Source of the DNA: Zanthoxylum bungeanum
Lineage: Eukaryota; Streptophyta; Magnoliopsida; Sapindales; Rutaceae
Assembly (NCBI GenBank): GCA_019454045.1
Contig: SKCR01036108.1
Location: forward strand, 16,097 to 80,096
Direction of reading: 5' to 3'
DNA length: 64,000 nucleotides
In this document: positions 9,656-58,566 of the stretch, piece by piece
How positions within the stretch are numbered: position 1 is the stretch's first letter
How the letters are laid out: the number at the start of each line of letters is the position of its first letter
Program-made: the position numbers and the translations under genes
The notes under the pieces: model-generated
Seen by the model: only the letters and a program-made list of their open reading frames with translations
Database searches by the model: none
What the model was told of the DNA's origin: nothing

Positions 9656-9714
9656 AAAGGATCCATTTTTATTACTTCTATTTTAGATATCTCCCTTAAT
9701 ATAATATATTAACT

Positions 9715-10880: not shown

Positions 10881-13800
10881 ATCTCCAACTTGGCCTATAG
10901 CCAATCACTCAAGTATCTAACACATGAACTATGTACATTGTCATCTGATGTGACCTTCTCGATCTTCACATCGCCACGATGTATGATCTCACAAATCAGA
11001 AGGAAACATCGAAGTACATGTTTGGATCGTTGATGAGACCACGGTTCCTTAGCCTGCGTTATAGCCCCGTTATTGTCACAATACAAAGGACGGGCTCAGT
11101 TGCTAACGGAACTACTCTAATCCAATTAGGAATTTATGGATCCAAACTGCCTTTTTTGCTACCTCAGCTGCAGTGATGTATTCCACTTCTGTTGTTAAAT
11201 CGGCAACAGTCTCTTGCTTGGAAGATTTCCAGCTCACTGCTCCGTTATTTAAACAAAATATGTACCCAGATTGCAACTTATGGTCGTCTTTATCGGTTTG
11301 GAAACTTGCATCGGTAAACCCAGTTACCTCAAGTTCTCCATCTCCATAGACTAAGAAAGCATCCTTAGTCCATCTAAGATACTTAAGGATGTTCTTAACC
11401 GTAACCCAGTGACCATCACCTAGATCGGCATGATAGCGACTACACATGCTCAAAGCATATGAGAAATCAGGTCGCGTACATATCATGGCATACATGATCG
11501 ATCCGACTGCAGAAGCAAACAGGATCCGAATCATGTTGTCTCTCTCATCTTGAGTTTTAGGACACATGTCCTTAGATAGAGAGAGGCCAAGTGACACTGG
11601 CAACAGTCCTCTCTTACACTGATCCATGTTGAATCTCTTCAACACTTTATCAATGTACGTGCTCTAGGAGAGTCCAAACAGCTTTCTATATCTATCCCGA
11701 TAGATCTTTATTCCCAGAATAAAGGCTGCTTCTCCCAGATCTTTCATAGAGAATTTTAATGAAAGCCAAGGTTTCACAGATTGTGGCATGGGAATGTCAT
11801 TGTCAATAAGCAATACATCATCTACGTAAAGGACAATGAATGTCAGTGCGCTCCCACTAACCTTCTTATATACACAAGGATCATCCTCGTTTTGAACGAA
11901 ATCATTTTCTTTTATGATCTCATCAAAACATTGGATCCAAGAACGCGATGCTTGCTTCAATCCATAAATAGATTGATTTAACTTGCAAACCTTATTTGCA
12001 TGTTTTGGTACAACAAAACCGTCAGGCTGTTGCATATAAACATCCTCCAAAAGGTTTTCATTAAGGAAAGCAGTTTTGATGTCCATCTGCCATATTTCAT
12101 AATCGAAATATTTAGCAATAGCAAGAATTATCTGAATGGATTTAATCATGGCAACAGGTGAAAAAGTTTCATCGTAATCGAAACCATGTCGTTGACGATA
12201 CCCTTTCGCTACAAGCCTAGCTTTGTACATTTGTATGTTGCCATCCATGTCAGTCTTCTTCTTGAAGACCCATTTGCAACCAATAGGCTTTACGCCTTCT
12301 GGTGCATCAACCAGTGTCCAAACTTGGTTGGTGTACATGGAATCCATTTTGGACTTCATGGCAACTTGCCATAAAGCGGAGTCGATATCTTGTATCGCTT
12401 CAGCATACGTAGCCGGCTCATTATCCTCAATTAGATTAATATCTACATGAGGTGAGATCAGAAACTCATACCTCTCAGGTTTTTTTCTGACTTTCTCTAA
12501 CCTACGTGGTTCTTGTGTATTAGAAGATTGTGGTATAGTCTCATCCATGATGAACTGTTCGTGTTCAATTAAGGAATCGGTGCCAGGAACAATATCACAC
12601 CGATTTTCATCGAGTTCAACTTTCCTCCCACTTACCACTATATTTAGGAATTCCTTTTCAAGGAAAACCGCATGTAGAGCAACAAATACATTGTTCTCTT
12701 GTGGGTGGTAGAAGTAATATCTTTTGGTTTCCCTAGGATAACCAGCAAATAGGCACTTATCCGAATTGGGTTCAAGTTTGGTACCATCCAAACGTTTAAC
12801 ATATGCCCAGCAACCCCAAATCTTCAGGAATGAGAAACCTGGTTTCTTTCCTGTCCATATTTCATATGGAGTCTGTTGAACAGACTTTGACGGAACCTTA
12901 TTCAAAATAAGTATTGCACTGTTCAATGCATATCTCCAAAAGGAAATTGGTAGCTCTGTGCGACTCATCATAGACCTTACCATGTCCAACAAAGTTCGGT
13001 TTCTTCGTTCGGACACACCGTTTAATTGAGGTGTTCCGGGAGGAGTCCACTGTGAAAGAATACCATACTCTTTCAAGTAATCGAGAAAAAATTGCTTAAG
13101 TATTCTCCACCATGTTCCGACTGTAATGTTTTAATACTTTTACCGGTCTGTTTTTCTACTTCGTGTCGAAACTCTTTGAATTTCTCAAAAATTTCTGACT
13201 TGTGTCTCATAAGATACACATAACTATAACGCGATGCATCATCCATAAAGGTTACGAAGTATTCATATCCACCTCTAACCTGGCTACAGATGGGACATCA
13301 TACGTCACTATGAACGAGGGCTAACAGTTCGGTGGCACGTGCATATTTACCGCTAAAAGGTGTTTTTAGGCATTTTGCCTAATAAACAAGATTCGCAGAT
13401 ATCATAGGAATTTGGATCAAATCCGTCCAAGTATCCACTCTTCGAAAGTGTGGATATACGAGTCTTGTTAATATGTCACAAACGATAATACCACATATAA
13501 GTTTCATCTTTGTTACTTAGTTTAAGCCTTTTATTTGTCATAATATATGTTTGAGATTGATTTATATTCAAAATATAAAGACCATTATTAACATCAGCAC
13601 TGCATATCTCAAAATTATTTTTATAAACAAAACACTCGGTGTTTCTGAATACAAAAGTATACCCACATTGGGTTAAGCAAGATACATATATAATGTTTCT
13701 AGTCAAACTAGGTACATAATAGCAGTTTGATTAATTAAGTACATGTCTCGAGGACAGTTCCAAAATATAGGTCCCAACATCCAAAACAGCGACTCTAGTC

Positions 13801-14470: not shown

Positions 14471-16667
14471 AATTGCAATAGTCTAACTATTCAATTAATG
14501 ATTTTGGGTACAGTCCAACTGTTACAATAAAAATAATAAAATATTAGTCCAACTAATAAATATATAAAATGACGAAAATAATTTGAAAGCGCGTATTTGG
14601 CAAGTATTTGAACGAAATTTCAAATTCAATACTGGCATCCCACTATTTTTCGGCGAGCCTCTAACCCTCTGTTGAGTACTCGGGAAACCTAGTTTCCTAG
14701 TGGGCTAGGATCCCGTTAAATAACACACAACATTGACTTTGGCCAACAAGCTGTATGATATTTAACTAGGTAGATCTCTAAGATCAATTGGATCCCATCC
14801 AATTCCTAGATCTGGTAGGTGGACCTCCAAGTCTGAAACATATATACAATATGTATGTTAATATATCCAATATATTTCCTAACCTTTTCCTCTGAATCAA
14901 CTAAGCATTGGCTTTGGCTCAACAAGCTTAATGATTCCAGTTAAGCGGGACCCATTGAAAATGGGAAAGCTTCGTAATCCACGTCAATGAACAAGAAGTG
15001 ACCTTGACTTTAACCAACAAGTCACAACTTGCCCAAGACATGCGATATGGAACAAAGCTTTCGTGGTTCAAACACATCAGCGATGGACATTGATCTTGAC
15101 TTTGGCCAACAAACCAATGCCAATCTTGGATCTTGAGAGAGAATCACTCAATGGAAGGAATTCACTTAATATTTGTTTGAGGGTTTTTTGCATAAATTGG
15201 CAACCAATTTAGTATCTTTGATTAGGTCTCATCATACACTCTTAAGCATGCATTCTAAAAGCATAATAAGGCGCGAAATAAATATTAAAACGATATGCGG
15301 ATGGATATTTAACAATTTTTTCCTAGAACAAATCTCTATCTTTCCTCTCTCTGGCTAGCATTATTCAAACTTTTACCCAATTACATAATACATTAAAGAA
15401 ACCTTATTTACTTTGAGGGAAATTGGTGAGAAGAGAAGTACAAAGAGTTAAGAGATAAAAGGCTGGACACGCATGTCCAATTTAATAAATTCTAAATTTA
15501 TTACAATAATTTCCAAAATTGCTCTCACCCTTCTAATATCCATCTGATATACATTATTCATACGATACATCCATGTATTCACACAAAGCATGTTATTCAA
15601 TCAATCTAATCCAATTAATTAATCTTTGAATTAATGATCATCCAATGTTCAAACAACGATTTGATTTGCGCGAGTCCAACTCGTTTAAGAATAAGTACTC
15701 AAAGTGCGTATTCTTGAATTATATCGAACTACAATTTTAAATCCGATTTAATTTGTATTCAATACTAATTCTAATTTAATTCCAAATTAAATAATTACAC
15801 ACTTATATTTGTGCCTTTTAGACTTAGATTCTAAATCCAATCTAAATGGGTCTCAAAGGCCCAATTAACATCCAATGTCAATTTAATTAAAGTCCAATGG
15901 GCTTTTAATTAATTCTTAAGGCATGGAGTTTGGAAACCAAAGCCCAATTAAGGAATCACCTTATTTGCCATAAAATTAATTTTGGCCCATTAGGCCCAAT
16001 TAAATTTTTAAAGGCCCAATTATTCTATTTGGACTTTATGGAATGGTTTTGGGCCCAATTTGGATCCAATCCAATTGTCCTAAACCAACTTGGCCCAACC
16101 AAGCCCATTAAGCCCAAATACAACAATTTTAGCCCAATTCAAAATAAAGGCTTATTATAATTAATACAAAATTCAAAATCTCACATTAATTTTAATTAAA
16201 GTGTATTAGCCATAATTAATTAGTTAAATTAATATTTCCAAAACACCAATTTATCTAATTAATCATGCTTTGACATATTCAATTCATGTCCAACACAATT
16301 GAAGCAAAATCAATCATATCATGCTTCCTAACTCACGGAAATATGCATGAATTATATCCAATTTTGATTTCAATCTAATTAAATCAACAATCAATATACT
16401 CATCATGTTTTAAACACATCTAATGGTCTAAAATCAAAAATTACCATGATATATCTAGGGCTTATAGTTTCGGTCAAGGCTAGCAAAATTAGGGAAAAAT
16501 TATCCAATTCATTTTCTCAAATTTTAAGATGCATAAATCTAATTCATCATCATCCAAGCTCAACCAAACCATCAATTTGAAGAAATCATGCTCAAATCAC
16601 AAAAACCCCAAATTAAAGTATATAAACCCTAAATTCATTTCATGCTTAGACAAGGCTCTAATACCAT
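14471..16667 (-). other. Copia element A long 5' leader, with primer-binding site
   Basis: About 2.2 kb of non-coding leader between LTR and gag, AT-rich with many short GGGCCCAAT-like blocks. It aligns in order with 24082-26000 of element B. The primer-binding site is at 16654-16666 (minus strand TGGTATTAGAGCC, close to the initiator-Met tRNA site TGGTATCAGAGCC). Four hairpin-forming repeats lie at 14724-15119 and are listed separately. No coding region seen. Confidence 0.7.
14724..15119 (-). other. Four hairpins with a common GGCC loop, leader of element A
   Basis: In the element's sense, four units share the loop TTGTTGGCCAAAGTCAAG (two units vary slightly). Spans on the plus strand are 15088-15119, 14998-15025, 14900-14932 and 14724-14757. 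Stems are CATTGGT/ATCAATG, GTGAC/GTCAC, ATTAAGC/GCTTAGT and CATACAGC/GTTGTGTG, so loops are conserved while stems differ. The same four units, in the same order, are in element B with compensating stem changes. Folding was done by eye. Confidence 0.65.
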
Positions 16668-17027
16668 TGTTGGGTTCCTAGAACATGTCAAGGATCTTCT
16701 AAGTCATGATTCGTGTGAATACTAAAAGAAGTTACGGAAAAACTTACATTGCTCGGTTGGATGGATGTATGAAGTTCAAAACTTTTTGTGTTGTTGAAGA
16801 GCTCCAAGCTTCTCCTTGTGTTCCAAACTCTTGGGAATGGTTTCCCTAACACCTTGGTTGACTCCTTTTTGTGCTAGCAATGAAGAAATTTTGAAACAAA
16901 ATTTCTAAGATGGAGAAGCAAGCTCTCGACAATATGGAAAAGGGAGAGAGAGAGAGTTTTTGTTTTTGTGTTGAGTGTATTTGATTTCAAAAACCAATTA
17001 CCAAATACCAAAAACCAAGTTGGTATT
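16668..17027 (-). mobile_element. Copia element A 5' LTR, first 360 bp only
   Basis: Starts TGTTGGGTTCCTAG and follows the LTR at 6834 base for base with few changes, as far as CCAAGTTGGTATT. There an Athila-type LTR begins (TGATGAGTGG at 17028). The rest of this LTR was not found to the right, so it was lost after the insertion. Confidence 0.85.
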
Positions 17028-19244: not shown

Positions 19245-20543
19245 ATGAGACAAACCAGAAGCATTGAAATCCGACCGCTCGACCCATAAATTGAAAGAAC
19301 CATCAGACAGTTGAGAAAGGAAATGCGTGAAGGCCAATAAGCTTTAGTCAACATGGAACCTGAACCTTTGGAAGTTGCACCACCAATTCCCATTCGAGAC
19401 AGAACTATTTCGATTATCGACGGCTTTATTTCCTGTATTGTACTTCCTCATTTACCAGCAAATGCGTGTGACATCAAAACATGCATTCAGGTGATTCAGC
19501 AGTTAGTGCAATTTGGGGGGAATGCAACTGAAGATCCTAATGCCCACATCAGCAACTTCCTGGAAGTTTGTGGCACTTTCAATTACAACCGAGGAGCTGA
19601 ATAAGCTATGAGACTGCGGGTTTTTCCATACTCATTGAAAGACAGAGCTAAAGCTTGGCTACATTCACTACCAGCAGGTTCCATCACAACTTGGAACACT
19701 TTAGCCACCAAATTCCTAACAAAGTATTTTCCACCAGCCAGAACATCAAAACTTAGGAATGACATCACATTCTTTATACAACAAGACTCGGAAACTCTCT
19801 ACGAAGCTTGGGAAAGGTACAAAGATTTGCTCCGGAAATGTCCTCACCATGAGATTCCAAAATGGCTTCAAGTCCAAATCTTCTATAATGGACTTTCTGG
19901 ACTGATGAGAATCACAATTGATGTTGCTGCTGGAGGAGCTTTGATGGAAAAATGAGAAGATCAAGTCTGGGACTTAATCGAAGAAATGGCTAACAATCAT
20001 TCCTTGTGGCCAACAGAAATGAGCATGATTCAAAGAATTGGTGAAATTTATGAAGTTGGAGCCAATTCAGTAGTCAACGCCAAGCTGGATCAGATATGTA
20101 AATTCATGGAGACTCTCAGCATTGGATCCACAAGTTCACCATATGGAGGAGCACCAGAACCAAACCAACTTGAAGAGATGGTGAATTATGTCAAAAATTT
20201 CAACAGACAGGGGAACAATCCATATTCCAACACCTACAACCTATGGTGGAGGAATCATCCCAATTTCTCATGGAGCAACAACTCAAGGCAAAAGAACTAT
20301 CCACCACCAGGATTCCAACAGCAAAACTAGGAGTTTGAAAAAGAACCAAAAATGAAAGAATGGATTGCAGAGATGTTCAAAAAGCAACAAGTAGCATATG
20401 ATGCTATTTTTCAGAGCCAATCAGCTTCCATCAAAGCACTGGAGAATCAAATTGGACAACTGGCCAATGCACAGAGTTACAGACCGCCAGGGAATCTTCC
20501 TAGCTACACAGAAACAAATCCAAGGAATCGAGAGAAGGAATAA
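19245..20543 (+). pseudogene. Athila-like gag
   Basis: One reading frame from MRQTRSIEIRPLD at 19245 to about 20543, interrupted only by point stops (near 19287, 19338, 19602, 19953 and 20328). The core, with RVFPYSLKDRAKAWLHSLP and TTWNTLATKFLTKYFPPA, is the Retrotrans_gag domain as seen in Athila elements. Downstream come QNQLEEM-type linkers and a coiled segment (ALENQIGQLAN). The minus-strand copy at 44657 reads glutamates (EEAMRLRVF) where this one has a stop, confirming mutation. The stops are mostly what C-to-T change would give. Confidence 0.9.
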
Positions 20544-22032: not shown

Positions 22033-24081
22033 TGTTGGACAATTATGACCCAAAGCATCACTATGTGTACAGATCATGGTGTTGTTGTACAAATTAACTA
22101 TGTGACAAAGAAAATTACCCTTTTATCATTTGTAATTAGATTACCAAGATGTATAAATGATAAAAGGTCCTTATGATTAGTTCCGGATTGAGATGATATG
22201 AGACAATATCAATCCACGAATGTTTAATCATTAAATATCCCTAGTCAGAGTATTAACGAGATTGGAAATCGATAATGCATAAAAGACTAGTATTACACTT
22301 GTGCGCGTTGTGGGAGCATAACATCATAGTTCTCATATATTTGGGTATAGGATACTCATGCAAGTGTAATAGGAGGTTGTGTTTACCGATGGTACGGGAA
22401 CAGCTTCGCTCTGGATAGACCCCTCGAAATTCCATTAGTAGTATGACTATGTGTCTATGGAAGTCCGAATCAGAGTAGGTGTATTTGGTATTAACCTGAG
22501 ACTTGCACCGCTAATACTTGCGACAATCAATATACTTTGGTTTTGGTCGTCCAGGGCTTTAACCGGTTCTGTGTACGCCTCTTCTGGGTATATTTAGAAT
22601 CGTAGTGTATTGGGTGTGATGTCGAGATGGAAGTATCACTCCAGTCATAGTGGAGATGATGATCACGTAGGATACGGAACTGATGCTCTTATATGCTGTA
22701 GCTATCGGGATATTATGACTAGGTCATGTTTATCTGATTATAGAGACTAGTTACCAGAAATCTGATATGTGCTTCGTACGGGGCAGACACAATTCCAGCC
22801 CCAGGCCTTGCACGTGACATCCGATACTGGATCGTAATACGCAATACTACGTATACTACGTCTGATATAGATCACATATTCCTTTAAGAATATTTCTGGA
22901 GAATTGGGTAGGCACGGTGCTTTGCTAGAAGCCAACCATGTCTTGTAAATCGATAAAAGCGTAGTACTAGGTACGTACGTCTTCGGATAGTCCGACGACC
23001 GAATTTACTGCCAACATATCCGGGGATCTCATGGGTCGCTTCCCGAAGATTCACCGATGACGTATGACTCGCACTTTATTAATCTGGGATTAATTTTATG
23101 AGAGAGAAAATTAATCTGGAATTAATTACAGAGATATTTTATCTGGGATAAAATATTATTTAAAGAGAGAGAACGATTAATTTGGAATTAATCGATAAAA
23201 TAATATATTCGATATATTATACGAAATTGGATTTCGACGCAGAATTAAAATTAGATTTTAATTCGGGTGAACGAGTTAATTTACAATTAATTCGTTAGCG
23301 ACGTGAATAGTAATTTTGCTAGGCATAATTATTTAATTAAATTTGATTTAATTACGTCGCAATGGAAAATTCGTTAATTCGGAATTAGCGAACCCGAGCC
23401 CGAGACTTTTTGTGGGCCCACTCGCATTTCGAATTCAAGTGCGGCCCAAAAGTCACATCAAGCGTCAAATCACTAGTCAATCAAGTGATGGAAGTCACAT
23501 CATTTTGAGTGAAGTGATGCTTGTCATTATTGATTGATGTGAATAGTGATGTAAGTTGTTGTAGGCATTTATTGCCAATTTGGTTCAAAATTTTGTTGAC
23601 CTTTTGAAAGGCATTTACAAAATTTTGGTATATCATTTAATTATTTTTAGAAATCAATTAAGTGTATTAGATACACAAACCAACAACCAACTCACTCTCT
23701 CTCTCTCTCCCTCCTTCTACCTCTCGGCCTAGGGCCAATTCTTTCTTTTTTTGGCTTTCCAAAACCGTGAGCAAGAACAAGAACAAGAAATTTTTGTGGC
23801 AAATTTTTCTTATGCTAGCATATGAAGAGTCATCCAAAGATGATAGGGAAACCCACCCATGGGCATGGAATGCACACCCAAGCTTGGAGCTTGGCCGAGC
23901 AAATGGAGCACAAAATCCCCTCAAATGCCGAGAGCTCAAGGAAGGAAAAGCTTGAAGATTTTGTTGTTCCTCGCATCGCAAAAGCCGATCATTGTAAGTA
24001 TGATTCTGCCATACTTCTTTTGAGTATTCACCTATATTTCATTGCTTGAATTGATCTTGGGACTAATCTAGAAACCCAACA
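22033..24081 (+). mobile_element. Copia element B left LTR
   Basis: 2,049 bp, TG...CA ends (TGTTGGACAATTATGACCC to GGGACTAATCTAGAAACCC plus AACA). Reverse complement of the A LTR at 6834-10880 (without its insertion) and of the solo LTR at 38063-39920. A CT-rich tract at 23693-23735 precedes the probable transcribed part. A 62-codon frame at 23767-23955 also occurs in the right LTR and is not considered a gene. Confidence 0.88.
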
Positions 24082-25267
24082 ATGGTATCTTGAGCCATTT
24101 TGAGCATGAAATTTGATTAGCGTAAAATTTGGGTAAATTGGATTTGAGCATGTTTTGACTAAATTACTTGTTTGAGCATGCTTGTATATGGATGACTTGG
24201 AGTTGTTTGTGATCAATTTTGTGAAAAAATATATTAGATCAATTTTTCCCCAAATTTGAGGCTTGGCCGAATCTTGGATGTTGCCCTAAGTCATGGTGAT
24301 TTTTGATTTTGATCATTGGATGAGTTGAAATCATTTGGGAAATGTTGATTTAGGATTTAATTGGATTGAATTCGGAATCGGACATGAAAATCCCTAATTG
24401 CCGTGAATGATGTAGCATGTAAAATGATATGATTTTTGATTCAAATGTGTTGGACATGTGTTGATGATGATAAGCATAATTAATGAGTAAATTAGTGTTT
24501 TGGAAATGTTAATTTAGTTAATTAATTCTGACTATACACTTTAGATTAATTAATTGTGAAATTTGGAATTTTGTAAGTTAATTAATTGGGCCAAATTTGG
24601 AATTGGGCTTGTAAAGTTGTAATTGGGCTTAATGGGCTTGGTTGGGCCAAGTTTGGTTTAGGCTAATTGGTTGGATCCAATTGGGCCCAAAACCATATCC
24701 ATAAAGTCCAAATATGACTTAATGGACCTTTAATATTAATTGGGCCTAAATTGGTTTCTTAGCAAATAAGGGTGATTCCTTAAATGGGCTTTGGTATTTG
24801 GGTTTGACCCATATTGACCAAAAGTCCATGCCTTAAGAAATTAATTGAAAGCCCATTGGACTTTAAATTAAATTGACATTTGATGTTAATTGGGCTTTGA
24901 GACCCGTAAAGATTGGATTTAGAATCTAAGTCGTAAAGGCACATTAAAAAGTGTAATATTTAATTTAGAATTAAATAGAGAATTAGTATTAAATACAAAT
25001 TAAATTGGATTTAATATTGTAGTTTAATATAATTGGAGAATTCGTACTTTTAGTGCTTATTCGCAAAATGTGTTAAGTATCCGTCCGCATATCATTATTA
25101 TTTTATTTATACGCGCCTTATTATGTTTTAGAATGCATGTTTAAGGGTGTATGATGATGAGACCTAACAAAGATAATTAATTGGTTGCCAATTATGCGAA
25201 AAACCCTCACAAAATATTAAGAGTTTTTCCTTCCATTGAGTGATTCTTACTCAAGATCCAAGATTGG

Positions 25268-25660
25268 CAATGGTTTGTTGGCCAAAGTCAAGACCTTTGT
25301 CCGTCGCGGATGTGTTTAAATCATGAAAGCTTTGTTCCATATCAGTGTCTTGTCCAAGTTGTGATTTGTTGGCCAAAGTCAAGATCACTTCTTGTCCATC
25401 GACATCGATTACGAAGCTTTCCATGGTCAATGGGTTCCGCTTAACTGGGATTATTAAGTTTGTTGTGCCAAAGCCAAGGCTTAATTGATTCAGAGGAAAA
25501 ATGTTAGGGAATATATTGGATATATTGGCATATATGAGATATATATTTCGGACTTGGATGTCCACCTACTGGATCTAGGAATTGGATGAGATCCAATTGA
25601 TCTTAGAGATCTACCTAGTTAATTATCATACAATTTGTTGGCCAAAGTCAAGATTGTGTG
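25268..25660 (+). other. Four hairpins with a common GGCC loop, leader of element B
   Basis: Units at 25268-25299, 25361-25388, 25453-25485 and 25627-25660. The loop is TTGTTGGCCAAAGTCAAG in three; the third has TTGTTGTGCC then AAAGCCAAG. Stems are CAATGGT/ACCTTTG (one mismatch), GTGAT/ATCAC (plus CAAG/CTTG beyond a small internal loop), ATTAAGT/GCTTAAT and CATACAAT/ATTGTGTG. Inside each loop, TTG and CAA can pair further, leaving an apical loop with the palindrome TTGGCCAA. Compared with element A, several stem pairs change on both sides. Confidence 0.65.
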
Positions 25661-26049
25661 TTATTTAACGGGATCCTATCCCACTGGGAAACAAGATTTC
25701 CCGAGTACTCCACAGAGGGTTAGAAGCTCGCCGAAAAATAGTGGGAGGCAAGTATTAAATTTGAAATATTCGTTTAGTTACTTGCCAATACGCGCTCATT
25801 TCTTTTTCTTCAATATAAATTAATATATTAGTTGGACTAATATTTAATCGTTGTTTTAAATTAAACAGTTGGACTGTATTAAAACTACTTCAAATTATAG
25901 TTGATTATATAATTGGATTATAGTAATCAATATATTTGAATTAACCAATTAATTATAGTTGATTATATAGTTAGACTATAGTAATCATTATAATCTATAG
26001 TACCTATAATCGTTGATTTAATAGTTAGACTATTGGAATCAAGATAATT

Positions 26050-26443
26050 GAAAGATTAGCGTTTAGAACATAATCCTGGAAAAAAATATCTTTAAACGGC
26101 TTTAATTTTCAAATTGGGAATAAAATCTCAGGATAGTTCTGGAGACCGAGAAGTTACTTTATTTGATATAGTGACGTCTCGAGCCTAAGCCCGGAGTTGA
26201 ACAAATAAGTAGAACATAATCTTTGGAAGATTCATGTGATGATAACTTTAGTGCTTAATCCATTATGCTTGCCACAAAGACTCCTTAATTTCTTAGTCAG
26301 AACTAAGGATTAGATCCTTATAATATGATAATGAAATTGAAGGATCTTTATAGATCTATCCTTATATCTTAGAAGTACAAATTGCAATAGAAAACTCTTG
26401 GAGAGTTAATGGCTATACTCAAGGAGACAAAGCCAGAGTTTGC
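26050..26443 (+). pseudogene. Copia element B gag remnant
   Basis: Broken reading with recognisable copia gag phrases in shifting frames: DDNFSA..SIMLATKTP near 26240, LDPYNMIMKLKDLYRS near 26320, then LGELMAILKETKPEF at the end. It stops at the deletion junction 26443/26444, where the right LTR resumes mid-way (AAGAGAGAGAACG, matching 23164). Confidence 0.6.
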
Positions 26444-27360
26444 AAGAGAGAGAACGATTAATTTGGAATTAATTGATAAAATAATATATTCGATATATTA
26501 TACGAAATTGGATTTCGATGCGGAATTAAAATTAGATTTTAATTCGGGCGAACGAATTAATTTAGAATTAATTCGTTAGCGACGTGAATAGTAATTTTGC
26601 TAGGCATAATTATTTAATTAAATTGATTTAATTACGTCGCAATGGAAAATTCGTTAATTCGGAATTAGCGAACCCGAGCCCGAGAGTGTTTGCGGGCCCA
26701 CTCGCATTTAGAATTCAAGTGCGGCCCACAAGTCACATCAAGCGTCAAATCACTAGTCAATCAAGTGATGGAAGTCACATCACTTTGAGTGAAGTGATGC
26801 TTGTCATTATTGATTGATGTGAATAGTGATGTGAGTTGTTGTAGGCATTTATTGCCAATTTGGTTCCAAATTTTGTTGACCTTTTGAAAGGCATTTACAA
26901 AATTTTGGTATATCATTTTAATTATTTTTAGAAATCAATTAAGTCTATTAGATACACAAACCAACAATCAACTCACACTCTCTCTCTCCCTCCTTCTACC
27001 TCTCGGCCTAGGGCCAATTCTTTCTCTTTTTGGCTTGCCAAAACCGTGAGCAAGAACAAGAACAAGAAATTTTTGTGGCAAATTTTTCTTATGCTAGCAC
27101 ATGAAGGGTCATCCAAATGTGATAGGGAAACCCACCCATGGGCATGGAATGCACACCCAAGCTTGGAGCTTGGCCGAGCAAATGGAGCACAAAATCCCCT
27201 CAAATGCCGAGAGCTCAAGGAAGGAAAAGCTTGAAGATTTTGTTGTTCCTCGCATCGCAAAAGCCGATCATTGTAAGTATGATTCCGCCATACTTATTTT
27301 GAGTATTCACACGTGTTTCATTGCTTGAATTGATCTTGGGACTAATCTAGAAACCCAACA
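26444..27360 (+). mobile_element. Copia element B right LTR, 5'-truncated
   Basis: 917 bp matching 23164-24081 of the left LTR at high identity. The first 1.13 kb is absent, removed by the same deletion that took pol and the polypurine tract. It ends CCCAACA and is followed by the target duplication. Confidence 0.88.
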
Positions 27361-27365
27361 CTTCT

Positions 27366-27871
27366 CTCCCTCAAAAATATCTGATGAAAGTCTACAAAGC
27401 TCGCTTGGAACGAATGAGACTACTGATGATCAAAGGTATTCCAACTGAAATTCGTTGGATTATTGAAGCACGGGTCCGATTCACAAGTGAGTCTTCTGAC
27501 TCTTTTATTTCACATCTGTCTGGTTTAGGAAGAAGTACCTATGCTAAAAGAGAAGAGCCAAAAGAATGTGTGTTTGTTATAAATGTGCTCGTATGTTTTG
27601 TGATACTCATTGTCGTTCTTTAGGAATGGTGTCTGATAACCGCGAAGATAAGATTAATTTCATTAGGGATGGCTTGAGTAAGGAGTCTTTGGATGACATA
27701 TCTAAAACTCTTGAGACGCATCCCAGTGGATATGTGTATCATGAAATTCACGTGTTATATACACAATTCCAAAGAGAAATACAACAGTTAAGTCTCGGGA
27801 ATCTGACTCAAAAAGACCTTGTTTGCCAATTTATAAGAAAATTGGATGGGAAGCTTGTCCCTGACGCATAG
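27366..27871 (+). pseudogene. Athila-like third ORF, main part, cysteine-cluster protein of unknown function
   Basis: Continues the frame begun at 21991. The first part is basic (KVYKARLERMRLLMIKGIP, then EIRWIIEARVRF). Near 27566 one frameshift leads into a cysteine cluster, CVCYKCARMFCDTHC, in the pattern C-x-C-x2-C-x3-C-x2-H-C. Then come REDKINFIRDGLSKESLDD and a final helical stretch ending KLDGKLVPDA and a stop at 27869-27871. Total about 180 residues, with no membrane segment and no signal peptide, so it does not look like an envelope-like protein although it sits in that position after integrase. The family is not one I can name. Confidence 0.6.
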
Positions 27872-28062
27872 TCGTCATTCAAGCCGCTTCCTAATATTTT
27901 CATTATTATTTATGTCATTATATGATATCGAATAATGTGTTTAGGTAAAATATGAATAAATTATAGATATATGATATCGAATAATTTATTCGGTAACTTT
28001 AAAAGTTTTAAAAATTATGATTTCGCCCGAACCGTGTTTCCGCTGCGTATGACCCCAACAGG
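27872..28062 (+). mobile_element. Short LTR 3'-end fragment, copia family C-like
   Basis: AT-rich, ending CCGTGTTTCCGCTGCGTATG then ACCCCAACA. This is similar to the ends of the LTRs at 53650 (TTCCGCTGCGTTACCGG) and 54657 (GCCCCAACA). Left boundary uncertain. Confidence 0.4.
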
Positions 28063-29370
28063 ACCTTCATCTGATATAATCGGCATTGATGACTCTCTGA
28101 CCTTCATTGGGTCCAGTCAACATTGGAAGTCTAAGCGACATTGAAGACCCAATCAACTTGGAAACCCCATATGACATACTCGTCGATTACTCCTAAGCAA
28201 TGACTCATTGACTTAGAGAGTAGGGAAATAACTGTGCATGCCAAATTTAGGCTAAGGACCCAAATGACATTGTGTCTCAATCGACAGTAAAATCCCAGAC
28301 GGCATATATTGCCATCCAATATATCCATGTGACAAACTCGTATGGAATCATGTCTCGTGGCTTTCATCTGCTTAAATGACTCCATGGGCTGCTACCAAGG
28401 CCCAATCAACATGAGTTTCGGTCCATACTAGAGCCCCGGTAGATATGAGGAGTCCAGTCGATAAGGACTTTCCAGTCGATAGTCACTTTCAATTGACATC
28501 TGGTCTACTAGATTAATATATGCTCAAACGCAAGGTAAGCAACAGCCAGACTTTCGTAAGCCTACAAATTGGGCCTACTCATAGGCTAGACCTAATTCCA
28601 GCCGTCAAGAGTAAATCCAGTCGATGTCTATTGAAATTTGACTGCTCATCGCATGATTATCAACAAACAGGCTATCAACAGCCTTGGGCCTACACACATA
28701 ACTCACATACAGGCCCACGAGCCCATGCACTCTCAAAAGGGAAGAATCCACATGACTTAAGGTCTCCAAGAGACCCTGACCATATTACTCAATGTACCAG
28801 GCAACATCACCTCGAGATACACAATGTCCCAGTCGACATTGCCTCATGATATGCAATATTCCAGTAGACATTGTATGTTAGTCTACACACGACTAATCCC
28901 TTTCTCAACAAGGAAAATCAAGTATCAAGACAAACTTCCTACAAACACGGTAGTCCAATCCAAATACAATTAGGATTACACCTAATCTCATACACTAAGC
29001 ACTTCTAATTTAATCCCAACTCGACTACCCTCTCCTAATAGGATTGGAATTCAATCCTTCCAATGAGTGCTTATATAAGTAAAAGTCTACATCTACAGCC
29101 TACAAATAGAGAGGGAACCGAATGGATTAATTCATTCAATAATTTAAGCTTTGTCTCTCACACTCAAGTTCTCAAAGCACATCATTCCCTAACATCAGTC
29201 TATCATCCTCACGGCAACAAACCACGAAGATCGATGTAACCATTTGTCTTGTCCTTTCTTTTTTCCGCTCGTCATCTCTACTGACTTGAGCATCAGAGTG
29301 CCAACGGTATCCACCATACCAGTGGGTAGTTACTCTGCGCTATTTCTACCTTTGTTTTGCGGGATCGTTG
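28063..29370 (+). mobile_element. Tat-like 3' region and LTR fragment
   Basis: 28063-28232 resembles the non-coding end of the first Tat element (ACCTTCATTGGGTCCAGTCAAC, purine run near 28212-28226). The LTR starts TGTGCATGCC at 28233. TATATAAGTAAAAG near 29071 is a likely TATA box. TACTGACTTGAGCATCAGAG near 29280 matches the usual Tat LTR end region. No protein-coding remnant follows. The right edge is not defined; 29360-29640 shows nothing recognisable. Confidence 0.55.
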
Positions 29371-29640
29371 GTGCCTCCATCCTATGAATTCTCAATTATG
29401 TACTGAAGGCGAAATTCAATGTGTATAGTACATGGATTTTTTTATTATTATTATTATAGTTGGGTGTCATATATTGGATGTTGATTTTGGTTATCATAAA
29501 ATTTTCGAATACCCGATCGTTTGTCATCCCTAATTACAACTAAACCCCTAAATATCGCATCTTGGAAAAAATAAATATACATCATCAGAAATTATGAATT
29601 AACAGTAACTAACTAATTCTCAACTTAATGGAAACAGTAA

Positions 29641-30193
29641 TGGCAACCCCAATGGTAAACATGATTTTGGTGCAAGACTTGTACCAAATTTTACATCAAA
29701 TTATACACCCATCTCCAACCCATTACTTCAAATTTTACTCTAAAAAAATATTCCTAAGAATATTTCATTTTAAATATTTCTCAACAATTAACATTTCACC
29801 CATTGACTAATATAATATTTACATTTAAACGTTTGACTATTTCGTATTAATCTTTAAAAATGAATTAATAAATTAAATCTATTATAAAAAAAATAATTAT
29901 ATTAATTAATAAAAATAAATATTTATTTTTCATTATTTATTTATAGCAAAAATATAATAAAACGGATTAATAAAATAAAATGTGGGATACAAATAGTAAA
30001 TTTATTTTAGTGGATCAAAATACAATTATATAAGGGTATAAATGACACAATTTAAAACTATTATGGACTAAAATTAATTTAACAAATTCTTTAAAAAAAC
30101 AAATTGACCCAATGAACACTAGCGCACCAAATTCTACAACCATACGCCAAAAGCACGAGTGACGTACTCAATAGCGCGCCATTGGGGTTGCTC
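29641..30193. mobile_element. Harbinger-like MITE, 553 bp
   Basis: Terminal inverted repeats TGGCAACCCCAATGG (left) and CCATTGGGGTTGCTC (right) match at 13 of 15 positions. They are flanked by TAA on both sides (29638-29640 and 30194-30196), the 3-bp target type of PIF/Harbinger. The interior is very AT-rich with no coding potential. Confidence 0.7.
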
Positions 30194-30196
30194 TAA

Positions 30197-31178
30197 CCTT
30201 TTCTTCCTCACTGATTCCAACAATTTCTATGATTCTATGGCCATTCTCGTTTAACTTTAACTTTGACCTGGAAATTTAGAGGTTTTATTAGCTTATAGTT
30301 ACAAGATAGGGCAGTCCAAAATTTGCACATGCATAAATATGAAAAAATCAGGGCACAAATCAATATAGACTTGTTAGGTTCGATTCTTTATGATGGTGTG
30401 AGAACATAAAGAATTCATATAATTAATAATTTTTTAGTAATGTACTAGAGCCCTTCGACCATGATTCTATCAATTTATGTCTTGATCTCATATCCTTTAG
30501 AGCCTAATTAATGATGATCTACTAAGCGAAATCTAATCTATATGGAAACAATAAGAACTTTCGGATTCACATTTTTATAACAAAATAACATAATATACAT
30601 GAGGAATAGACTTGGACCTTCTTTAAAACATATAAGAAACAAGGAGATGGACTAAAAGGAAAAACTGAGACAATGAGTTTGTAGGTTCATGGTAAAGATG
30701 TTTTGGTAGGACAATAGTTTCTCCATCAACATCAAAATGACAGTTCAATGCCCAAGGAAATTCATCCTCTGAAACATCACTACACTGTTTTGTAGGCAAA
30801 CATTAATTTGACATTTAACACAAGTTACAGACTCATGCATAATTACAAGACAGAGATGTACAAAGTACACACTAAGAACAAGATACAACCACCCATTTGT
30901 ATTTTTTTTACCTTTGAATGCATGGACAAACATTGGTTGACCAAATTTTTGTAGAAAAAGAAAAAAGCCACATGCAGAGGAAGGCATGAAGATATTTGTG
31001 TCTGAAGGACCATCTTGTCAACTCAGTGCAGTGCATTAGCGAACCCATCTCGAGACTCTGGAGACTAACCTCACTGTTTAACATAATTCACTCGTATCAG
31101 CAGCAAACTTCAATCTGCAAAGTTATGTCCTTGAGGATAAATCCCCTTTTATACAGATTCAAAAGAATACCAAAGTCA
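30197..31178. other. Intergenic/3' flank of the PMIR1-like gene
   Basis: AT-rich and without recognisable elements. The part next to 31178 (downstream of the minus-strand stop) should hold the 3' UTR. No start-to-stop frame here looks like a gene. Confidence 0.5.
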
Positions 31179-34100
31179 TCACTTCAATCTAATTGTTTCA
31201 TTTGGAAGAATTACATTGGGATTTCGTTTAAGGGGGTTGAGTGCCGCCAATTCCTTCCTTTGTGTTCCAGTATTATTAATATGGGATGAGATACTCCACA
31301 AAGTATCGGATTGCACTGTTGTAACAGGGGCTGCAGCTGATTTTGAAACAGTCTTTGACTTCATAATTGTATTCTTATTGCTCTTCCCCATTCCATTAGC
31401 CAGCAACCAGCGAGAACCAGACTGTTGTTGAGTTTTGGTACCCCAAAGCTTCTTCTTACCAGGCTCAGTCTTCAGTCCTGCAACATGGACTTCAGTGACT
31501 CTGTATTCAGGTATTCCTTCCTCTTCAGAAATTTTCTCTTCTTTCACCTTCTCTTGTACCTCTTTCACCACTGACTCTGACTCATCATCCTCTTCATTGT
31601 TATTTCTTACCTCTGAGACTACTCTATATATTTTTGGTTTTGGTGGGACAAAAACTCTCTCTACCTGAATAAGAGAAAGCATCGGGGCACCAACTGGCTC
31701 ATAGTTTCTCAAAGGATCACGAAGTTGCACCATTAGTGCTACGGTGAAGTTATTCCCCAACAGACCACACTTTCTACCAGCTCCTTTTCCCCGCCTTCTC
31801 TCCCCCTTTGACCCCCCACGAATCAAGTCCAAGGAGGTAGCGTGATGGGCTGCAAGGATCTTTGAAGTCCGCTCGCTGATTTGATCTTCATCATAAATGT
31901 CACCAGAATCTAGCCTCATCCATTCATCAAGAGTCAGCGACAGACCCATTAATCCATCAATTTCATCACCGGTGTCTTTTATATCCAACAACTGCAACCC
32001 AGCAGTTCCCTCCAAACCAAGGGCCCCAGTGATGTTAGCCCCCATACCCTGAAATGCCGAAATTTCCCCAATAGACTGTGCGCTGATGTTTGAAGGCGCT
32101 TCCTCATCCGACATGCCAGATTGAATTCTCAAGCCCTCCATTGAAAGTGCTTCAATCTTATCCATAGCCAAAGGAGCAAGATCTTCTAGGGATACATATT
32201 CCGAACCCACCTGATTGCCGACTGACAGAGAACTGAACTCACTGGACCTGGCTCCAGAAGATCTTTTAACTCTCTTTTTCCCACTGGATAAGTCTTGCCC
32301 TACCTCTGATTCATGCTGCAAAATGTACTGACTGTACCATTGAACAAAGAATTTGTGATAAGAAAAATTATTTTACCAGCACTCATTTAAGCAAAACATA
32401 TTGCGCATCCAAATACATAATAAACAGCAAAAATTAGGCTAACAAACCTTTCAGTTCCCTCTAGGGTCGGTGCAGCTTCCCATGCTACTTGTTGCATTGT
32501 CTTACCGGTTATATCTTCCAGTGGCATCAACTTATTCGCTTGCATAGAGAGCTTTTCAATACCAACAGATGCCAATACCTGTAGTATCTCCATTATACCA
32601 GACCCCATTTCTGCAGGTACCACAACCGGGCTAGAAGCCTGCATGATCAAGTTCCCGGTGCTTTTAGCTTTGCTAAAAAGTGAAGGATTCATAGACCGCA
32701 AAAATCCTCCATTCTTTGTCTGAAGAAATGGACCCAACCCTTCTCCAAGTGGAGGCGGTTCAAGCGGCTCTTCCAGAGGCACATCAATTGGACTCCCAAA
32801 CCCAGTGGAGCTTTTATGCGGAGAACACAGAAAAGCCTTCTCATCCAATCCCAACTCATGCATTAAAGCTTCTGTCTCCAAGTCTTCTAACATTGTGGCC
32901 CTCATTTTGCTCTTCACATTCTGAGTTTCCATTCGATGCTCCTCAGCTGCTTGAATGGCTGATGAAAGTTCAAAATCCTTGGAGAAATCGCCCCACTCAG
33001 GAGCAGTTGGTTCATTGTAGCCACATTCTGCTTGGTCCTCATCACCCAGCCCAAAATCAAATAGCGAAAAGCCACCAGTTACGGTATCCTTCTCAAATTG
33101 CCTTAACAAACGCTCCCTCGGGGACTCGGGCTCACTCTCAGAACTCAAGCCAAATGGACTATGCTCAATTCCCAGCATGTTCAAGAACTCACTTGCCACA
33201 GTTTCAGTAACATCATCCAAGCTATGTGACCTTCCCAACCTGTTAGGTGTATGATCCATTTTAACTCCCATATAATTCTCTTGGCCATCAGGAGATCCTA
33301 GAGCTTCTGTCTCCAAATTAGACACACTAATCAAAGCTGACTCTAATTCTTCCATCAGTGAATCTTTGGAGCATATGTCATCAACTTTGGAACCACAATC
33401 AAGCTCCATCAGCTCACTGCCACCGTCACCATCTTGGGGAAGCTCATTTCCCTCTTCAAAAGCTACCAGTGCAGAAGCGTCAACTTCAGCACTTTCTACA
33501 GAAAAATCAGCAGCAGCTGTTGTGGCATCTTCCTCTGGATTCTCTTGTTCCTCCAATGGCAATTCTATCCCTTGTTCAATTACAGAGAACTCATTGTCTT
33601 CACGTTCATTTTCAAAATCTACTCTTCCAGAGTTGGAAATGAGATAAAAATCTGGTTTGATGGGCTCAACATGTTCAATGAAGACATCAAGTTTAGATGA
33701 GTCCAATTTTTCTTCATCAAATTTCTGATATAGCATACTCACTGAACTGTCAACTTCAGCAATTTCTACAGAAAAATCAGCAGCAGCTGTTGCAGCACCT
33801 TCCTCTGGCTTCTCTTGTTCCTCCGATGGCAATTCTATCCCTTGTTCAATTACAGAATCTTCACGTTCGTTTTCAACATCTACTCTATCAGAGTTGGAAA
33901 TGAGATAAGAATCTGGTTTGATAGGCTCAACATGTTCAATGAAGACATCAAGTTTAGAAGAGTCCAATTTTTCTTCATCAAATTTCTGATATAGCATACT
34001 CACTGAACTGGCAAGTTCTGATTTTGATATTGGCAAAACCTCATGAAGATCTTTTATGTCCTCTACAGATTGAGATGAGGCATGAGACCGCTGATTAAAT

Positions 34101-34984
34101 TTACTATGGAGGCTTCCAACAGGTTGCATTGTGTCCTTGCCATCACTTGGACCAAATTTAGCAGCTGGCTTCAACAAAGTCAAGTTGTTCTGCTTCATAT
34201 TCAACACCGGATGAACACTTAGATTATTTCCACTGGGACAATTATCCCCAATGACTGTATACCCAAAACTAACATTCATTGTAGCACCTCTAGCTTTTCC
34301 AGATAACTTAAAACTCGTAGTCCACTTACCAGAGCTCTTCTCCTCCTCCAGTTCTTCCAATGTAAGAGGAAGCAACCTTGTGAGGTCGACCCGGTGCTTC
34401 CCCAAATCAAGTTCTGGTGCTTCAAACACGGAAGCATAGAGCAAGAAATGCTTGGCCTCATAATTGGCCGAATGATGGGGTCCATTCCTACTACCATAAA
34501 CCAAGCATGTGTGTGTCAATTTCTCATCAAACTCAACCGTTCCATCACAAACCTTGGCCGGACGAGTCACCAAACCCCCGTCCCGCCTCTTCCAGTGTAC
34601 AACAAAACTAACATCATTAAATCTCGGGGGCAACCCTTCAATAGAATGCGCTTGAAGAGAAAAACAGCACTTAAACCTACGGTTTTTCACACTAGAAAAG
34701 GCCTTCAAAGGCTTCCAATTTTTCCAAATGGATTTCTTATCCTTATGAGGGAGATCCTCATTGGTATTGGATTTGAACTTGACTTTGGCATCAGGCAATG
34801 GAACTTTTCCCGTGAATTTGGACCTAGACCTGGTATTGGATGTAGAACTCGAACCCGTTGTTTTATTTTCAAGATAAAAAGCTTTGCTTATAGCATCAAT
34901 CTCATTTAACAACTTATTATTATTTGAACCATCGCCTATCTTCTTCCCAGCTTCAACTTTTGACAACATCATCTTTATTTTCAA
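31179..34984 (-). CDS. PMIR1: PLASTID MOVEMENT IMPAIRED1-RELATED1 type protein
   Basis: Two coding exons, 34984-32448 and 32331-31179, with a 116-bp GT-AG intron. They join in frame (GTE-S-QYILQHESE) to give 1,229 residues, near the length of Arabidopsis PMIR1 (about 1,160). Residues 100-245 are an N-terminal C2-like (NT-C2/EEIG1-EHBP1) domain (FKCCFSLQAHSIEGLPP, WTTSFKLSGKARGA). A low-complexity acidic middle follows, then the conserved blocks FLNMLGIEHSPFGLSSESEP, SGIMEILQVLASVGIEKLS and LMPLEDITGKTMQQVAWEA. The C-terminal half ends NVILPNETIRLK. PMI1-family proteins act in light-driven chloroplast and nuclear positioning through cp-actin filaments. Residues of about 326-412 are tandemly duplicated at 413-502. 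Start choice: Met at 34984, with alternatives at 34972 and 34969 (MLSKVEAGKK). Confidence 0.92.
33480..34010 (-). repeat. Tandem 87/90-residue duplication inside the PMIR1-like exon 1
   Basis: The nucleotide period is 261 bp (ATTTCTGATATAGCATACTC at 33721 and 33982). Both units start SVSMLYQKFDEEKLDSSKLD and run through VFIEHVEPIKPD, EQGIELP and TAAADFSVE. The second has three extra residues (NEF). The copies are highly similar, so the duplication is recent relative to the family. The frame is kept. Confidence 0.92.
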
Positions 34985-35330
34985 ACAATAAATAAATAGA
35001 TAAATAAATAAATTAGAATTAGACTAAACAAACTTCATAAGAAAATAATTTAGATTCACTGAGTAATTCATGTTTATATTTCTACAACAATGAAAATACA
35101 AACCCAAATCAGCAATAAAAAAAAAAATCAGAAAAACAGAAAGTACCCGATAGAGCTTATGGGACTTGCGAAGATTTTGATATATTCAACAAATTAAAAA
35201 TTAAAAATTTTAAAAAAAAAATAGAGATTGGAATTGGATTTAGGGTTTCTTACACTTATAGAAACAGAAAGACTTGCAGTGTCTGTATTGCCGCTGCCCC
35301 TGTCTGACTTTCAATTTCAAAATTGGTATA
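34985..35330 (-). promoter_or_regulatory. 5' UTR/promoter-proximal region of the PMIR1-like gene
   Basis: Contains an A-rich stretch near 35110-35220 and a telo-box (AAACCCTAA on the minus strand, 35240-35248). A C/G-rich patch lies at 35280-35310. No TATA position can be assigned; a 5' UTR intron is possible but not proven. Confidence 0.35.
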
Positions 35331-37270
35331 TTATTATTATTACATAGTAATTATCGTTGGCACTTTTAGTCTATTATACATTGTAATTTAAGTTGGCCCC
35401 CCTTATCTTCTATGAAATATTGTTTCCTATATGATACTTTTACCTATTTGGTTTATTGACCCATCATCGATACTATATCAAATTTAATATATTTTAGTAA
35501 ATTATAGTAATTTTAATATAATGCAATACACCAATCGCACCTATATTTGAATTGACGAGAGTGAATGATTTATAATATAATTTAACTTAATTCAAAAGTC
35601 ATTATTTGGTTAGATAAAAGAGTATGGAATAGGGTGTAATAAAAAGAATCCATCAACCATTGATAATCAGCTGGGGATGAAATATAAATAGAAAAAATAA
35701 TGTTATTTATAAAGATGTAATTGCCCCTTATAAAACCTACAAATAATATTTTTATATTTATTTCATCACTTTTTATTTATTAAATAATAAATGAAGTATT
35801 ATATTAGAAATCCATTTTTCTAGTCAAATAAAGTTATGTTATATTAGTCTTCATTTCTTTCCATTTTACTCTATAAAATTACATATAAATAATCTCATTT
35901 CATCTATGTAAATATAACCTTAATTATATATGACCATATATAACATAGCTTTTGCACAAAAATTTAATGCTTTTGGATTCTACACAAATTAAATTAACTA
36001 AAGAAAGATTAATTGGCAAGAAAAAAAATATAAGGTAAAATATAAGGCACTCATCCTTTTGTAATATTAGTTCGGTTTTAGCCAAATAAAAAGTATAAGT
36101 ATATTATATTGTGAATAATGAAACACGAAAGGATTATAAACCTAATTATCAATTGTAAAAAGTTTAAAATTGCTAAAAACAAATTGTAAAATTAATAGAA
36201 AATGAAAGTTATTGGGGGTGAGAATGAAATAAGAAACAAATTTAGAAAACGAAAAGTGAAATGTGAGGAAAGATGGGGGCTTGTCTTTTGTTAGTACCGT
36301 AAACGCTAGAGCTTGTAAGTTGTAAGGATTAGCTCTCCCCATTGTTCTTCGAAAAGAATAGATGCTGACACCAAACGGCTTCCTTTTTAAGTTTATTAAT
36401 ACCCACATACTCATTTCCCAAAGGAGTAAACAAATGGCGTGTCGAGTCGAGTTGGGTAGTATTAATTTTTTTATCGATTCAATTAAGTTGAATTAAGATA
36501 AAATTTAAATTTAAATTTGATTAAGCTTAATACGAAACTCGATGTAAGTTGATTGTTAGGATCAAATTTCAAAATTAAAATAATTTTTTATTTAAAATTA
36601 AAAAATGTGGGTTATAGGGTTTAACATTTTAATTCACCCCAAACTTATATATATCTAGAATCAGATCGAGTCAAATTTACTATTTTTTTTTACAAGTACG
36701 AGATCCAATTCGATGAATTTAATATCTCAAATTCAACTAAATCGGGTCAGGTCGGGTCATCGATATGATCCAATTTTTTAATACACCTATTTCTTTATAT
36801 CTTTCAATTAATTATTTTCATTTTATTTTATTTTTAAATTCAACAGCTTATTATCGTCAATTTTTTTTCAATTTTTATTATCATCCAAATCTTAGAAAAC
36901 AATTGGATATTATTATCATCCAATTGTTTTCTTTCAAGACCTAAATTTAAATTTTAAAATTTTGAAAATGTAAAGAGGATATTCCCTTCCTGAGAATCAC
37001 GCAAGGAGTGGACTGAAGTTTCACAACTTCCAAAAAGCAACACATTAAATTAAATTATATAATTCTTCAACCCATTTTTTAAAAAAAAAAATTAATATTA
37101 GTGGGGCCAATTTCCAGATGATTCCAAGAACAAAGTAACTTATGACGTGCACTTTAAATAAATTTGAAATTTGTGTTTTATTGGTTGATAGCCAACTCAA
37201 AATATTCAAAATGACGCGCCAACCCAATTATTTGGATAATACCATGCTATTTCACAAAATAATGTCCCAT
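35331..37270. other. AT-rich intergenic sequence with a possible decayed hAT-like copy
   Basis: No coding region seen. 36430-36795 starts near GGCGTGTCGAGTCGAG and ends near GGGTCAGGTCGGGTCATCGA and AATACACCTA. The composition recalls the MITE at 63249, but no target duplication could be found. Confidence 0.3.
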
Positions 37271-37559
37271 TGTTATGAAAATATAAAATTATATGGATGT
37301 TTATTAAATTAATTTTTTTTATCTCTCATTAGTAATTTTTTATATTCCTATAATTCCCACAATTTCCTTAAATTAAGGATTATTCCTTATATTATGATAT
37401 ATTTACGTGCCTCATTATGTCTATAAAATGAGGGTTTGTCTCAACACTTTGTATACTCGAAAGATTACATAATAAAAGAAAAAAGAATGAGTTCATATGG
37501 TTGAAAAATTTTGTTATATTTTATCTTTACAATTTCTTCTTTACCTCTATTATTTAACA
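37271..37559 (+). mobile_element. Copia family F, left LTR
   Basis: 289 bp, TGTTATGAAAATATAAA to TATTTAACA. A TATA-type box with CTATAAAATGAGGGTTTGTC lies near 37421. Immediately after it, GTTATCAGTATGAGACTC resembles the PBS region TTATCAGCACGAG of short-LTR plant copia elements. Its partner is at 58278-58541, about 80% identical by eye. Confidence 0.8.
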
Positions 37560-39920: not shown

Positions 39921-39925
39921 TCTAA

Positions 39926-49704: not shown

Positions 49705-49717
49705 GCAATTGACAGTT

Positions 49718-58541: not shown

Positions 58542-58566
58542 CCTGTTTTTTTTTTTTTTTAATTGC

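Follow-up and report, generated by a model that had tools for sequence, protein, structure and literature searches.

Comparative evidence for a selected RNA array of four hairpin arms with a shared head in the leader of a Copia retrotransposon family of Zanthoxylum bungeanum

Introduction

Packaging signals of the murine leukaemia virus type consist of several hairpins between the primer site and gag, in which a conserved tip is carried on changeable stems. A bulge and a fixed head on a free stem, and the repetition of identical sites, are also characteristic of the coat-protein hairpins of the MS2 type and of the Mason-Pfizer constitutive transport element, constitutive transport elements of simple retroviruses serving the nuclear export of unspliced RNA by binding the NXF1/TAP export receptor. 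The present work concerns a stretch of 64,000 nucleotides from Zanthoxylum bungeanum (assembly GCA_019454045.1, contig SKCR01036108.1, positions 16,097 to 80,096 of the forward strand), hereafter called the window, and two long terminal repeat (LTR) retrotransposons within it, element A on the minus strand and element B on the plus strand. Comparison of family copies shows that four arms in the leader are, as read from their patterns of change, a selected structure of the sense-strand RNA with one shared head, the outer stems appearing free in sequence yet bound to pair and the bulge and inner stem of the head nearly fixed. The array resembles the retroviral packaging hairpins in its conserved tips on changeable stems and in lying between primer site and gag; it differs from them in its distinct head with a 5' bulge and in its four copies. 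Its heads are unrelated in sequence to the MS2 hairpins and the Mason-Pfizer element, the likeness being one of form only.

Ty1, of the same Copia superfamily, likewise has structured RNA near the primer site and gag. According to the consulted parts of two papers, its 5' domain contains a pseudoknot, the PAL palindromes, kissing hairpins and a packaging region, the hairpins being needed for dimerisation and packaging (PMC5454406, PMC8396678). In these accounts the first 326 nt of Ty1 contain two hairpins that differ from each other but have tips complementary to one another, and +230-580 is proposed as the packaging region, whereas the array described here has four arms with one shared head, about 1.2-1.6 kb past the primer site in an untranslated leader. 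Copia elements of the BARE/Angela type also have a long untranslated leader ahead of gag, and BARE2, unable to make its own Gag, is said to retain dimerisation and packaging signals (PMC3735527); the consulted parts of that account describe neither a four-unit array nor the form of the BARE2 signals. For LARD elements an internal region without protein products but with well conserved RNA secondary structure is described in the consulted part of PMC7215508. Membership of that group, in which the whole family is without coding sequence, was considered and rejected, as element A carries pol-type sequence and element B is non-coding by a deletion which is missing from six other B-like loci. Among the literature matches listed, which covered few subscription papers, no title or abstract dealt with a retrotransposon leader that carries hairpins repeated in this way, and none named a two-tier recognition code for an LTR retrotransposon.

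Results

Four units and their predicted fold

A preliminary description of element B, made from the letters of the sequence, had placed four hairpin units with a common loop in the leader, and all four are present at the positions it gave (Table 1). The four stems quoted for them were also all found, except that the stem of unit 1 of B carries one T.T mismatch (6/7 pairs); most B-like copies have just 5/7 pairs in this stem. The loop of unit 3 is slightly changed, as had been described, its head being one base longer and without the palindrome of the other units. The 18-nt loop, with up to three mismatches allowed, is matched six times in the window, A and B contributing three matches each (shuffle mean 0.11), and a covariance model built from the eight units of both elements recovers those eight at 43.7 bits or more, no other match in the window exceeding 14.6 bits. 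The array is thus also found in element A, together with pol-type sequence, and is therefore not peculiar to B.

When folded singly, seven of the eight units are predicted to take one shape, in which a CAAA tetraloop closes an inner stem UUGGC/GUCAA and two bases left unpaired on the 5' side separate this from the outer stem. The inner stem of unit 3 is UUG-GC/GCCAA, with one bulged base. Changes within the heads match this fold: GUCAA to GCCAA in unit 3 replaces a G.U with a G-C pair, and in unit 2 of element A a C-G pair could become U.G. Elements A and B agree at 48-57 of 60 positions in 60-base segments starting at 25230-25740, compared with 36-45 of 60 in segments starting at 24060-24420. 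The stretch at about 24840-25050 is also well conserved between them (48-57/60), and the units are therefore not the sole conserved part of the leader.

Compensatory change between units and between elements

Eleven substitutions distinguish A from B in 54 stem positions, and pairing is present at 27/27 pairs in A and 26/27 in B, both bases having been replaced in three pairs (one A-T by T-A and two T-A by C-G). Random placement of the 11 substitutions left 21.9 pairs on average and reached 27 with a frequency of 0.0003. When all eight units were compared, pairing held in 94.8 % of the 96 cells (77.7 % in shuffles), 23 cells showed double changes (8.3 in shuffles), and the covariation score was 0.658, compared with 0.306 when shuffled and at most 0.143 when slid. 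Among the 54 stem pairs of A and B there are six G.U and no A.C, and the fold z-scores of the units lie between -0.9 and -3.9 in sense and between -1.6 and +1.2 in antisense orientation.

Copies in the genome

The genome searched comprised 3.96 Gb in 51,709 contigs. With the leader block of B as query, the best 40 of 2,325 candidates, B included, were 96-100 % identical, and with that of A the best 40 of 3,244 candidates, A included, were 95-100 % identical; identity of the B-like copies to B was mostly 94-97 %. The exact 17-mer core TTGTTGGCCAAAGTCAA occurs 202,456 times in the genome and its reversed control 0 times. Forty regions around the first-listed core matches were fetched from 100 listed 17-mer places, the last five clusters on contigs C23 and C24 being left out; all four units were present in 36 of them, three units in three and one unit in one. 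Intact family members lacking the units had been named in the preliminary description as evidence that would speak against it. The presence of all four units in 36/40 regions does not bear such a lack out, in a sample that was, however, chosen by the core sequence and cannot reveal members without any unit. One leader (L177) has units 1 and 2 three times, followed by units 3 and 4, the first half of the array having been duplicated locally.

Compensatory variants of the stems were found among the copies in unit 1 (GGT/ACC, GGC/GCC and GGG/CCC), unit 2 (GTGAT/ATCAC, GTGGT/ACCAC and GTGAC/GTCAC), unit 3 (AAGT/GCTT and AGGT/GCCT) and unit 4 (AAT/ATT and AAC/GTT). The genome-wide counts for unit 2 (A-T pair 21,201, G-C pair 22,062, G.T mix 183) express an association and not a number of events, because two large subfamilies could yield them.

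Exact 17-mer scans gave matches in three stretches of viral contigs and in 48 of bacterial and archaeal genomes, one match each, which by estimate is about the chance level for collections of such size. Viral contigs searched for pol gave no match. No Rfam family matched the leader at gathering score; the window as a whole gave two such matches, both to snoR71 (RF00097) and outside the leader, at 19749-19855 (-) and 44023-44129 (+), inside two copies of one 2.2-kb repeat, which suggests that plant snoRNA R71 is carried by a repeated element.

Inherited changes preserve pairing in the arms

For a tree-based comparison, 107 usable loci and elements A and B (109 in total) were merged to 102 distinct leader blocks, which were aligned and their changes mapped on a tree by parsimony. 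Two loci with truncated blocks (L181 and L192), and L052-L059, which repeat places already included, were left out. Changes on inner branches were taken as inherited from still-mobile elements, and those on tips as mostly post-insertion, here called later changes.

With the stems preset from B, 23 of 28 inherited changes from the paired state kept pairing in all four units, compared with 52/101 later ones (P 0.004), and in units 2-4 the figures were 20/21 and 42/75 (P 0.0006); six slides of the stems, pooled, gave 38/73. In the 102 pairs that make up the four arms of the consensus fold, pairing was kept by 60/72 inherited but only 156/337 later changes (P 4e-9), and by 202/389 in slid controls (P 5e-7). 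When the copies selected through the 17-mer were left out, the figures for the arms were still 29/36 inherited vs 66/143 later (P 0.0003). One-sided inherited changes led to G.U in 31 cases and to A.C in four, later changes in 97 and 63 (P 0.0014). The acceptance of G.U with A.C mostly avoided, together with the difference between sense and antisense z-scores, thus points to selection on the sense RNA and not on DNA. The reading of the array as selected RNA structure, for which covariation across family copies had been proposed as the check, is accordingly borne out by compensatory change between units, between A and B and, as inherited covariation, across genome copies.

Nearly fixed heads on free stems

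The 69 sites of the heads (17-18 nt each) had five inherited and 80 later changes, compared with 288 and 855 elsewhere in the block (P 9e-6); with another tree the heads had seven and 78, compared with 258 and 727 elsewhere (P 0.0001). This constraint was carried by the bulge (one inherited, 21 later) and the inner stem (three and 45). The outer stems changed as fast as the rest (0.78 vs 0.66 inherited changes per site), and their pairing was nonetheless kept. A stem free in sequence, with pairing kept and a head near-fixed, thus gives the signature of a free stem bearing a fixed, recognised head.

The self-complementary octamer

The preliminary description had also proposed that the loops expose a self-complementary octamer, TTGGCCAA, for dimerisation by kissing loops. 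In the predicted fold this octamer lies mostly within the inner stem, and complementary sequence exposed in a loop, as kissing loops would need, was not seen there. Opening it would cost 0.2 kcal mol−1 in unit 2 of A and 2.3-4.2 in each of the other seven units, and in the thermodynamic model all eight bases are open at about 19 % in the former and at about 0.1-1 % in the latter. In a sample of 158 units, selected via the core sequence, the octamer was intact in 106/119 heads of the 18-nt kind and 0/39 of the unit-3 kind, and the inner stem was complete in 104/119 and 33/39, respectively; nor was the palindrome found in unit 3 among the other leader-copy variants inspected. The feature common to all heads is therefore the inner stem with its loop and not an exposed palindrome, and the kissing-loop model is not supported in the form proposed.

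A second set of hairpins with T-N-G triloops

Perfect hairpins of at least 6 bp whose triloop reads T-N-G in the sense strand make up 26 of 29 triloop hairpins in B, 21/34 in A and 8/11 in a third LTR at 38158-39923, where shuffled sequence gave on average 0.14, 0.19 and 0.05; their antisense counterpart, C-N-A, was counted 0, 1 and 0 times. In 38 distinct leader copies there were 367 T-N-G, one C-N-A and 124 other triloop hairpins. Pairs of the T-N-G leader stems were kept in 10/17 inherited vs 16/62 later changes for the stems of B and in 4/9 vs 4/37 for those of A, a retention that is suggestive and weaker than in the arms. More such hairpins occur at 47058-61607 (+), as 18 of the 50 triloop hairpins counted over 27361-38157 and 39924-64000 together (1.1 on average in shuffles); these hairpins beyond the three elements perhaps sit in other LTR elements.

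Elements A and B and their surroundings

Elements A and B are Copia (Ty1) LTR retrotransposons, as shown by RVT_2 and a retroviral SH3-like domain in element A and, in both, by the LTRs and the adjoining primer-like site. The TGGTATC of element B, which we take to be an initiator-Met-tRNA primer site, has a counterpart in the TGGTAT at the corresponding place after the LTR end in A. The leader of B extends from this site to the decayed gag start near 26050, which is presumed to be gag, in part from its resemblance to element A. Element A has a leader of the same kind followed by decayed gag, the three-frame translation of which contains the stretch CGKQGHWKRDC, presumably a zinc-knuckle-like motif within a gag frame. 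No reading frames of at least 120 aa were found in three loci (L110, L055 and L116).

Retention of the array in element B, which has lost pol, had been taken as a sign of a cis-acting role. The homology of six other B-like loci, two of which are alike, ends at 26445-26448, where B is joined to its second LTR piece, and the 26443/26444 junction itself was present in 0/6 other B-like loci with flanks. It recurs in L052 (G000:C44082), which is 99.9-100 % identical to element B, junction included, and is a duplicate contig or second haplotype of the same locus. As the junction is confined to B and this near-identical contig, the loss of pol looks private, and B was rejected as a natural experiment on cis elements.

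The window also contains a host gene of the PLASTID MOVEMENT IMPAIRED 1-RELATED type (NT-C2 domain) at 31179-35023 (-), the protein of which has its best named matches in Xanthoceras, Acer and Pistacia, a host gene for a Band 7/SPFH protein at 58992-59837 (+), and a tandem array at 4771-5915 with a unit of about 145 bases.

Table 1 Positions of the leader array and associated features in the window
Feature	Position	Strand	Remarks
Leader block with the four arms	25230..25770	+	Fold z-score -4.4 in B, -6.0 in A
Arm 1 of leader RNA	25252..25314	+	Inherited changes keeping pairs 11/18, weakest arm
Unit 1	25268-25299	+	Outer stem 25268-25274/25293-25299, head 25275-25292
Arm 2, long irregular hairpin	25325..25421	+	Inherited changes keeping pairs 25/25
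Unit 2	25361-25388	+	Head 25366-25383
Arm 3	25445..25493	+	Inherited changes keeping pairs 16/19
Unit 3	25453-25485	+	Head 25460-25478, one extra bulged base, without palindrome
Arm 4	25614..25672	+	Inherited changes keeping pairs 8/10
Unit 4	25627-25660	+	Head 25635-25652
Element A, unit 1	15088..15119	-	
Element A, unit 2	14998..15025	-	
Element A, unit 3	14900..14932	-	
Element A, unit 4	14724..14757	-	
Element A, LTR pieces	16667-17027 and 6833-7193	-	95.0 % identical
Element A, pol-type reading frame, Copia superfamily	11664..13130	-	RVT_2 4.4e-66, SH3_retrovirus 2.1e-19
Element B, 5' LTR part repeated at 26444-27360	23163..24081	+	96.4 % identity between pieces
Element B, primer-binding-site-like TGGTATC	24083..24089	+	Start, after 5' LTR
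Element B, decayed gag start	26050..26443	+	Stops in all three frames
Element B, second LTR piece	26444..27360	+	Junction at 26443/26444
Dense strand-specific T-N-G hairpin sets	22033-27360 (+), 6833-17027 (-), 38158-39923 (-)		Varied stems; leader and LTR start

Discussion

In the mechanism that we favour, the untranslated leader part of about 530 nt in a very abundant Copia RNA forms four hairpin arms, each capped by the same small head of a 2-nt 5' bulge, an inner stem and a CAAA tetraloop. Each head would be bound by one partner molecule through both shape and sequence, so that one RNA could offer four equal binding sites and the four heads could give avidity. From its position and by analogy, the binder would most probably be the Gag encoded by the element itself, which, bound at four places between the primer site and gag, could then pick out genomic RNA of full length to be packaged in virus-like particles. 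A Gag-bound recognition platform of four sites for packaging would be the likeliest use of the array, and we give it an even chance. It is favoured because of the position, the zinc-knuckle-like Gag and the parallels with retroviral packaging hairpins and Ty1; a structured region does lie on the genomic RNA between what we take to be the primer site and gag, as is expected of a packaging signal. An extension of this scheme, which we think rather doubtful, would be a two-tier code in which the four identical bulged CAAA-loop arms serve for nucleation and tens of perfect U-N-G triloop hairpins, scattered through LTR and leader, act as dispersed Gag sites, Gag being loaded via many equal contacts as in the capsid-directed packaging of small RNA viruses.

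Several observations weigh against the selected arms, their fixed heads or the role of Gag. Slid by +1 alone, the preset stems kept pairing in 14/17 changes, equal to the real stems overall, and the best arm slide (+1) kept it in 31/44. Only 6/15 inherited events in the outer stem of unit 1 ended paired, and only 11/18 in arm 1 kept pairing. The arm pairs were derived from a fold of the tested alignment itself, a bias in their favour, and the other helices of that consensus fold are unsupported (29/55 inherited changes kept pairing), so that the block does not form a single rigid structure. Mutual information over 22,710 variable column pairs was dominated by subfamily differences and did not rank the stem pairs at the top; 10 of the 27 stem pairs could be ranked, at 52 to 8,258, the other 17 not being variable on both sides. 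As for the heads, the CAAA loop by itself (three inherited, 12 later changes) was indistinguishable from the rest of the block, unit 2 of element A is predicted with four of the five inner pairs and a six-base loop, and without the 17-mer-chosen copies the fixed-head test was borderline (4:37 vs 128:428, P 0.051), so part of its strength may come from sampling by the 17-mer. The identification of Gag as the binder, finally, is drawn from position and analogy.

Other uses of the heads may be considered. They might be dimerisation sites, with the octamer of units 1, 2 and 4 joining one RNA to another through kissing loops or an extended duplex, which we consider unlikely. The self-duplex of the octamer is predicted at -11.1 kcal mol−1, dimers are predicted to be more stable than two monomers in 8/8 units, and Ty1 RNA dimerises via kissing hairpins in the part of PMC5454406 consulted; against this stand the burial of the octamer in the inner stem with the opening costs given above, its version in unit 2 of A, UUGGUUAA, which has no stable self-duplex (+1.4), and unit 3, which has kept the inner stem and CAAA without any octamer. 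The intact octamer in most of the core-chosen 18-nt heads would also result from conservation of inner stem and loop alone. A host factor bound by the heads, acting in export of the unspliced RNA, in its stability or in translation via internal entry or ribosome shunting, is possible without being probable, an export or translation factor being about as likely as dimerisation. A long structured leader ahead of gag and repeated equal heads would suit a multimeric adaptor, and ribosome shunting past structured leaders is described for plant pararetroviruses (PMC5902531, part consulted), whereas the leader matched no Rfam family at gathering score.

Two readings would do without an RNA function. 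If selection acted on DNA, on protein-bound palindromes or W-box-like TTGAC, the RNA fold would be incidental; the GTCAA of units 1, 2 and 4 does give on the other strand what we take to be the W-box core motif, but unit 3 has GCCAA, the outer stems vary freely, and double-stranded DNA would make no difference between G.U, which is accepted, and A.C, which mostly is not. This strand asymmetry largely refutes the DNA reading, which we hold to be very improbable. The units might instead be a functionless repeat duplication kept through recent common descent, for which the close identity of most B-like copies to B (94-97 %) could speak. Inherited changes, however, preserve pairing more often than post-insertion ones and are depleted in the heads, tests by which this reading too is largely refuted, and little credence is left to it.

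The way in which the RNA of LTR retrotransposons is marked for particles is poorly known, and the consulted part of PMC8396678 describes the mechanism as unclear even in Ty1. With more than 200,000 exact cores, the genome of Z. bungeanum is a natural mutational scan, in which inherited and non-inherited changes of stem, bulge and loop can be read, and the four-site handle is short enough to be tested with one purified domain.
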